DNA from: Mycetocola reblochoni REB411
GTDB lineage: Bacteria; Actinomycetota; Actinomycetes; Actinomycetales; Microbacteriaceae
Direction: 5' to 3'
Assembly: GCF_900163835.1 (NCBI RefSeq)
Contig: NZ_FUKR01000072.1
Span: forward strand, 1 to 64,000
DNA length: 64,000 nt
In this document: piece by piece, positions 1,198 to 62,009 of the stretch
Position numbering within the stretch: the first letter of the stretch is position 1
Layout: each line of letters starts with the position of its first letter
Made by a program: the position numbers and the translations under genes
The notes under the pieces: generated by a model
Database searches by the model: none
What the model saw: the letters and a program-made list of their open reading frames with translations, nothing else
What the model was told of the DNA's origin: nothing

Positions 1198-2580
<1,383 letters not shown>

Positions 2581-60829: not shown

Positions 60830-61861
60830 TCAGTGCCGCCGGGCGCCGTCCTCCGCGCCCTCGTCCTCGTCCTCGTCCTGGACACAGCCATCGACCGGCC
60901 CGGCGCCGCGCGTCTTCATCAGGCTCGCCACCGTCGCCACCGCGATCGTCGCCCCGATGAACAGCAGCGAGAACCAGATCGGGATCTCCGGCGCCCACTC
61001 GACCGCCCTGCCGCCGTTGATGAACGGCAGTTCGTTGACGTGCAGCGCGTGGAACAGCAGCTTCACGCCGATGAACGCGAGGATCACGGCGAGGCCCTGC
61101 GCCAGGTAGACGAGGCGCTCGAGCAGACCGCCGATGAGGAAGAACAGCTGACGCAGGCCCATCAGTGCGAAGGCGTTGGCGGTGAACACGATGTACGCCT
61201 CGCTGGTCAGGCCGTAGATCGCGGGGATCGAGTCGACGGCGAACGCCAGGTCGATGAAGCCGATCGCGATGATGGTCAGCAGCATCGGCGTGACGAAGCG
61301 CTTGCCGTCGAGCTTCACGGTGAGCCGGTCGCCGTGGTAGTCGTCGGTGACAGGGAGGTGGCGCTTGACGAAGCGCATGAGGGCCGAGTCGGCCGGGTCG
61401 GACTCGTGGTTGGAGAAGGCCTGACGCCAGGCGAGGAAGAGCAGCAGGGCGCCGAAGACGTAGAAGATCCAGGACAGGTTCTCGATGAGCGTCGCACCGA
61501 TCGCGATGAAGCCCCCGCGCAGGATCAGCGCGATGACGATGCCGATCATCAGCACCTTCTGCTGGTAGGCCTTCGGCACGGCGAAGCCAGTCATGACGAT
61601 GAGGAAGACGAAGAGGTTGTCGACGGAGAGGGCCTTCTCGGTGAGGTAGCCGGCGAAGTACTCCCCGCCGTAGCCCCAGCCGGAGACGACGCCGATGCCG
61701 ACGCCGAACAGCAGGGCGAGGCTGATGTAGAAGACGGACCAGCGCGCGGACTCGGCGATGGTCGGCTCGTGGGGCTTGCGGACGTGGACGAAGAACTCGT
61801 AGACGAAGAACGCGATCGTCACGGCGATCGTGATCAGCCAGACGAGGGGGGTGACCTGCAT
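60830..61861 (-). CDS. TerC/Alx family membrane protein (probable manganese exporter)
   Basis: The 343-aa inner membrane protein has about nine helices. Characteristic acidic intramembrane motifs are ALSVDNLFVFLIVMTGFAVP and its repeat FIDLAFAVDSIPAIYGLTSEAYIVFTAN, both with the SVDN/AVDS Asp that binds metal. The C-terminus is acidic (QDEDEDEGAEDG). Members such as Alx and MeeF/MeeY handle Mn2+ export or metallation of secreted enzymes. A yybP-ykoY manganese riboswitch directly precedes it. ATG 61861 follows TTGGAG at 7 nt. Confidence 0.93.
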   Translation of the reverse strand: MQVTPLVWLITIAVTIAFFVYEFFVHVRKPHEPTIAESARWSVFYISLALLFGVGIGVVSGWGYGGEYFAGYLTEKALSVDNLFVFLIVMTGFAVPKAYQQKVLMIGIVIALILRGGFIAIGATLIENLSWIFYVFGALLLFLAWRQAFSNHESDPADSALMRFVKRHLPVTDDYHGDRLTVKLDGKRFVTPMLLTIIAIGFIDLAFAVDSIPAIYGLTSEAYIVFTANAFALMGLRQLFFLIGGLLERLVYLAQGLAVILAFIGVKLLFHALHVNELPFINGGRAVEWAPEIPIWFSLLFIGATIAVATVASLMKTRGAGPVDGCVQDEDEDEGAEDGARRH

Positions 61862-61893
61862 GGGTGCTCCAAGGGGTAGGCGTGCGGATGACG

Positions 61894-61990
61894 CCAAGGT
61901 CTCCTCCACCCCGCTGACGGGACCGGCGACCCGGGAATGCAGCGATGCATCCGTACTGACGGGACGTCGACGTGGGAGTACTCCCCTTGA
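61894..61990 (-). ncRNA. yybP-ykoY manganese riboswitch
   Basis: In the minus-strand mRNA the leader begins CAAGGGGAGTA and ends GGAGACCTTGG about 97 nt later. These are the conserved 5' (AAGGGGAGUA) and 3' (GAGACCUU) parts of the yybP-ykoY aptamer, with CAAGG (61985-61989) pairing to CCTTG (61895-61899) as P1. Between them are two GC-rich arms (around CCCGTCAG and CCGGTCCCGTCAGCGGG). The CCCCUUG just before the terC start (61870-61876) can pair instead with the aptamer's 5' CAAGGGG, covering the Shine-Dalgarno UUGGAG. Mn2+ binding should then release translation. Confidence 0.85.
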
Positions 61991-62009
61991 ACGGAGTCAG
62001 CTTACACGC

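Follow-up and report, generated by a model that had tools for sequence, protein, structure and literature searches.

The window analysed here, the first 64,000 nucleotides of contig NZ_FUKR01000072.1 of Mycetocola reblochoni REB411, carries on its minus strand the gene terC (60830–61861; ATG at 61861–61859), which encodes a 343-amino-acid membrane protein of the TerC/Alx family. The product matches the Pfam family TerC (E 1.5e-47) and, at 355.2 bits against a cut-off of 246.4, the NCBIfam model TIGR03718, ‘R_switched_Alx’. Directly 5′ of terC, on the same strand, lies an aptamer of the yybP-ykoY (Mn2+ riboswitch) class, whose letters from 61992 to 61894 run GUUCAAGGGGAGUACUCCC...CCCGUCAGUACGG...GUGGAGGAGACCUUGG; it is followed in the 3′ direction by a small GGCG/CGCC hairpin, the stretch CCCCUUGGAG, five bases and the AUG. 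The Shine–Dalgarno sequence of terC, GGAG at 61870–61867 as read from the letters, stands 5 bases before the ATG and is invariant across 53 aligned leaders, a selected set. An alternative in-frame start farther upstream, at a GTG or TTG within the aptamer (a 359-amino-acid reading), was considered and dropped because the frame is broken in relatives such as L006. A database contig titled Vibrio cholerae (WNZI01000043.1, locus L158) encodes a TerC 81% identical to that of the window and like the Arthrobacter proteins listed; it is probably a product of contamination or mislabelling.

The sequence TAAGCT at 62004–61999 is probably the −10 box of terC, to judge from the conserved spacing of a TANNNT motif: of 175 distinct upstream sequences, 162 have such a motif 14–21 bases 5′ of GGGAGT, as compared with 5.6% in shuffles that preserve base composition only. 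A −10 box in this position would have the transcript begin at about 61992, at the first bases of helix P1.1, whose 5′ strand would therefore be the very start of the mRNA. A 129-amino-acid open frame without a Pfam match (62399–62010, minus strand) ends just before this promoter.

The aptamer itself can be laid out helix by helix. The switch helix P1.1, identified by sequence and by covariation, joins UCAAGG (61990–61985) to CCUUGG (61899–61894). Next comes loop L1, with GGAGUA (61984–61979) on its 5′ side and GAGA (61903–61900) on its 3′ side; the motif GGGAGTA is present in 179 of 180 aptamers, and the 3′ side is GAGA in 153 and AAGA in 27 of the 180. Helix P1.2 (61978–61904), in which CUCC (61978–61975) pairs with GGAG (61907–61904), encloses P3 and P4. 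Loop L3, GUCAGUAC at 61960–61953, contains an adenosine (A61957) that matches the Mn2+-contacting adenosine of known members (A41 of L. lactis, A48 of X. oryzae), described in PMC6754395 as the invariable Mn2+ contact within UCA41AU43UC and ACA48U49ACU, respectively. By a loose pattern count, GUCA or GUCG is found in L3 of all 180 aptamers; the form GUCA-N-UAC retains the adenosine, and the E. coli alx equivalent is GUCAUUAC. We considered whether the L3 loop (GUCANUAC) might be a metal-site variant and dropped the idea because L. lactis (UCAAUUC) and E. coli alx share the same short type. Visual inspection of the window and its close relatives revealed no evident P2 hairpin in the stretch that links P1.2 to P3. 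Beyond the aptamer, the spacer hairpin P5 (61895–61879; GGCG 61895–61892 with CGCC 61882–61879) overlaps the last two bases of P1.1; among the 53 selected leaders, 93.4% of its cells are paired and two of its four pairs show double changes.

The sequence-only reading of this DNA had assigned the leader to the yybP-ykoY class and had put forward an Rfam RF00080 covariance search as the check, with the lack of a match to count against it. Taken literally, that check went against the assignment, since RF00080 gave no match in the window, either at its gathering score or at E values up to 10, and none elsewhere in the M. reblochoni REB411 genome. The test is unsound, however, because established members fail it as well: in E. 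coli, the mntP leader reaches 41.6 bits where the cut-off demands 45, and alx is unlisted up to E 1. Across 148 Actinomycetes genomes no sequence scored above the cut-off. Genome annotation that relies on RF00080 as it stands in Rfam 15 will miss real members.

Because RF00080 is insensitive, we built a covariance model, R1, from six related actinobacterial terC leaders, including that of the window and excluding E. coli alx. They had been collected by a plain DNA search of 99 genomes, of which 12 gave a match; in seven of these 12, including the window's own genome, the match precedes a terC. The window, being one of the six model-building sequences, scores 96.4 bits. In E. coli, R1 recovers the leader of alx (34.7 bits, E 8e-8) and returns no match to mntP at E values up to 5. 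Within the order, 168 of 396 genomes have an R1 match. The model also matches eight actinobacterial leaders that RF00080 detects weakly, at 28–42 bits; the genes behind these presumably include ones for UPF0016-like, MntP-like and CaCA-like proteins, to go by the look of their sequences. Six of the 14 weak RF00080 loci (L023, L025, L026, L027, L029 and L030) lack the aptamer motifs and were set aside as apparent chance matches in coding sequence.

For covariation we used 102 R1 matches (100 distinct) from 100 sources, comprising 85 measured terC leaders, seven leaders before another gene, two second terC copies (L117 and L118) and eight canonical actinobacterial leaders without a terC match; L119 and L120 lie outside this set. 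(L117 and L118 each carry a pair of aptamers spaced about 1.1 kb from one another, and each aptamer is followed by a terC copy of its own.) Standard pairs fill 93.9% of pair cells, and double changes occur at 23 of 27 pairs. In an alignment fitted to the tested structure, which favours this result, there are 596 double-change cells as compared with 185 in shuffles and a maximum of 72 with the structure slid along the sequences, and the covariation score is 0.607 as compared with 0.211 in shuffles and no more than 0.105 in the slid controls. All five helices covary over the 100 distinct sequences. P1.2 (helix 2 of the alignment) has 91.4% of its cells paired and double changes at four of five pairs; P1.1 covaries strongly across the order, as illustrated by two of its pairs, one of which is GC in 48 and CG in 41 sequences and the other GC in 53 and AU in 44. 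The match of R1 to alx, the covariation of the helices, the L3 adenosine and the ‘R_switched_Alx’ gene together bear out the class assignment: by homology and structure, 61992–61894 is a yybP-ykoY-class aptamer that the current Rfam model misses.

The 5′ strand of P1.1 has a second potential partner. The strand CCCCUUGGA at 61876–61868 is complementary to 61991–61983, such that CAAGGGG (61989–61983) can form seven pairs with CCCCUUG (61876–61870), extended by U61990–G61869 and U61991–A61868 to nine. The nine-pair helix covers GGA, the first three bases of the Shine–Dalgarno GGAG. The coordinates, the seven-pair alternative helix and its extension by the G–U and one more pair had all been given exactly by the sequence-only reading. 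A base-shuffle test on this helix in the window alone, with shuffles that preserve base composition only, returned p ~0.01. The predicted minimum-energy fold of 62000–61850 includes the helix; the overall folding stability of that segment is no better than that of shuffled sequence (z 0.32).

To follow the competing helix in relatives, we used 89 close-relative terC leaders chosen regardless of pairing. (These derive from 90 sources, namely the window, 79 of 80 loci and 10 others, which yielded 92 matches, with nothing from L200; three of these were second matches and were set aside, and the pairs L005/L152 and L036/L138 look like duplicate sequences from two collections.) At least seven contiguous pairs with the 5′ strand are available in 48 of the 89, the window included, as compared with 0.7 expected from shuffles (again matched in base composition only), although the 48 are related by descent and so are not independent. 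The remaining 41, many of them from Microbacterium, Agreia and Plantibacter, are without a seven-pair competing helix. For the 3′ strand of P1.1, a partner of this kind exists in just two of the 89 (7.8 expected). Among 59 distant terC leaders of the order the pattern is reversed: the 5′ strand has a partner in one (0.5 expected) and the 3′ strand in 40 (3.3 expected). These distant leaders (for example L053, L059, L067 and L071) resemble that of the window in aptamer, gene family and promoter spacing but differ in that the P1.1 3′ strand, CCUCCGGU, faces ACCGGAGG of the Shine–Dalgarno region with at least seven pairs, whereas the window uses the 5′ strand. From these opposite pairing patterns, both designs appear to set P1.1 against occlusion of the ribosome site, through opposite strands. 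The second terC of the window's own genome (L002), 52–55% identical to the first and preceded by an aptamer of 41 bits, has the 3′ strand as its better competitor (E3 −13.0, p 0.05; E5 −9.4, p 0.75). The expression platform of the window's leader thus seems, from these comparisons, to be a conserved, lineage-specific and side-swapped one that hides the ribosome site. We propose more tentatively, at somewhat below even odds, that two lineages share this Mn2+ aptamer on terC and have swapped the switching strand of P1.1: most of the order would use the 3′ strand as an anti-Shine–Dalgarno, and the window's clade (Arthrobacter, Pseudarthrobacter, Cryobacterium, Herbiconiux and others) roughly the first nine bases of the mRNA, with both arrangements present on the two terC genes of the window's genome.

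Covariation was also sought in the competing helix itself and none was found; its pairs are nearly invariant in 53 selected leaders. These were aligned from 63 distinct leaders picked by pairing energies, after ten without a CCCUUGG-like stretch (L125, L141, L146, L167, L171, L183, L185, L192, L194 and L196) had been dropped by eye, and because the rows were selected, counts on this alignment are not used as chance tests. One leader, L042, alone changes all three elements: its 5′ strand reads CGAGGGG for CAAGGGG, the P1.1 partner CCUCG and the competing strand CCCCUC, and six pairs are kept.

Constrained folding bears on whether the switch would free the ribosome site. In all 48 leaders the competing state has a lower energy than the P1.1 state, as a default OFF state would need. 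In the window, the mean unpaired value of the Shine–Dalgarno is 0.34 in the P1.1 state and 0.09 in the competing state. Across the leaders, however, just 15 of 48 have a Shine–Dalgarno that opens further in the P1.1 state, and the mean difference is −0.07, on energies that omit Mn2+ and loop docking. The suggestion that aptamer folding frees the terC ribosome site is thus supported in part: the competing helix at that site is conserved, and the release of the Shine–Dalgarno in forced folds holds for the window but fails in most relatives.

Taken together, the computations establish that the leader contains an aptamer with these helices, that this aptamer is akin to the E. coli alx element and that the competing sequence is conserved. 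On our preferred reading, the terC mRNA would open with a yybP-ykoY aptamer, and the 5′ strand of its weak switch helix, P1.1, would consist of the very first bases. Mn2+, the probable ligand, would join L1 to L3 and thereby hold P1.1 closed (61990–61985 with 61899–61894); without Mn2+, the same 5′ strand would shift to its downstream complementary copy (61876–61868), burying the terC Shine–Dalgarno. Given that P1.1 and the competing helix share a strand, Mn2+ would switch terC translation on, and TerC would move Mn2+ out of the cell or supply it to exported enzymes. That control is exerted on translation, and in this direction, is suggested by the anatomy of the leader and by analogy with the translationally controlled alx. 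We give this Mn2+-ON switch as a whole, with the 5′ strand of P1.1 as competitor, a probability of roughly two in three.

The rival that survives best, and to which we assign a distinctly smaller but real share, is that the aptamer senses Mn2+ while CCCCUUGGAG is a mere extended ribosome site kept by descent, with regulation achieved otherwise, for example through invasion of the last P1.1 pairs by P5, through Rho access or through mRNA stability. The invariance of the competing helix speaks for it, as do the double changes in P5, which overlaps P1.1 (again in the selected set), and the forced folds, which do not clearly free the Shine–Dalgarno. Yet the CCC and UU that precede GGAG are unneeded for a Shine–Dalgarno and agree with the P1.1 5′ strand much more often than shuffles do, and L042 altered the 5′ strand, its P1.1 partner and the competing strand together. 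An improbable variant is that a yybP-ykoY-type aptamer has drifted to another divalent metal: PMC7266159 expects yybP variants of altered metal specificity to be common, and the window's element scores below RF00080 reporting, but its L1 and L3 motifs are the same as those of E. coli alx, the L3 adenosine is kept, and TerC/Alx proteins have been linked to Mn (PMC10550928). That the leader is no riboswitch, and merely resembles one by chance within GC-rich DNA, would accommodate the negative RF00080 search and the ordinary folding energy but is contradicted by the covariation, the wide conservation and the alx match, and we regard it as very nearly excluded.

The Mn2+-ON switch reading would place terC in these bacteria under probable Mn2+ control, as for E. 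coli alx and B. subtilis meeY. Leaders of the Mn2+-riboswitch type are widespread in this actinobacterial order, where the current Rfam model has passed them over, and the two expression platforms, with competition by the 5′ or the 3′ strand of P1.1 on related terC genes, form a natural pair that offers a clean test of how a switching strand evolves. The aptamer also stands before other genes. In seven loci of the window's family (L037, L039, L041, L043, L046, L084 and L085) it precedes a protein of about 270–295 amino acids with a conserved ARYDYLLQTADP...DAFARLTP; two members gave no Pfam match and one gave no NCBIfam match, and its gene may be a target new to the Mn2+ riboswitch class. The window's genome encodes a 42% identical relative (L203, G000:C36:20916-21449), and the GGGAGTA motif is absent from the locus as fetched. 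The same genome contains a further aptamer match (L204, G000:C32:51820-51937; 29.8 bits, E 3e-4), with GAAGGGGAGUAGUUCC and GUCGACACAC, ahead of a 482-amino-acid membrane protein weakly like calcium/sodium antiporters. Two Microbacterium genomes have a second, divergent aptamer (L172:1152-1247 and L188:1152-1247, minus strand) near the terC leader (1367–1464, plus strand).

Measured against the RF00080 family, the window's leader has P1.1, L1 (GGGGAGUA), P1.2, P3 with a GUCA loop L3, the GAGACCUU end and a metal-homeostasis gene downstream; it differs in scoring under the model's reporting level, in a P1.2 that starts with CUCC (GGAGUAC rather than GGAGUAG) and in a P2 that is not evident by eye. 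Corynebacterium glutamicum belongs to a different order from that of the window. Its terC (cg2157), like that of the window, is an actinobacterial terC behind a yybP-ykoY leader, which scored 49.13 bits with RF00080 in the release then used and was observed as a leader RNA (PMC3890552). In the literature searched, mostly non-subscription papers with most matches judged from the listing alone, we found no description of a 5′-strand platform or of this leader in these bacteria. The leader of E. coli alx (PRE) has the same L3 type, is matched by R1 and likewise controls a TerC/Alx-family gene, with regulation at translation (PMC3874183); it is described there in terms of hairpins C, D and S and of pausing-dependent folding, and competition by the 5′ strand as in the window is absent from the parts of that account consulted here. 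In the yybP Mn2+ riboswitch of L. lactis, P1.1 is the switch helix and is stabilized by Mn2+, but control differs from that proposed for the window in being transcriptional antitermination, with a terminator that overlaps P1.1 as the competitor (PMC11087558). A yybP-ykoY leader also precedes the terC-family gene meeY of B. subtilis (PMC10550928), and together with cg2157 and the very name of the NCBIfam model this makes such leaders before terC-family genes an established theme.
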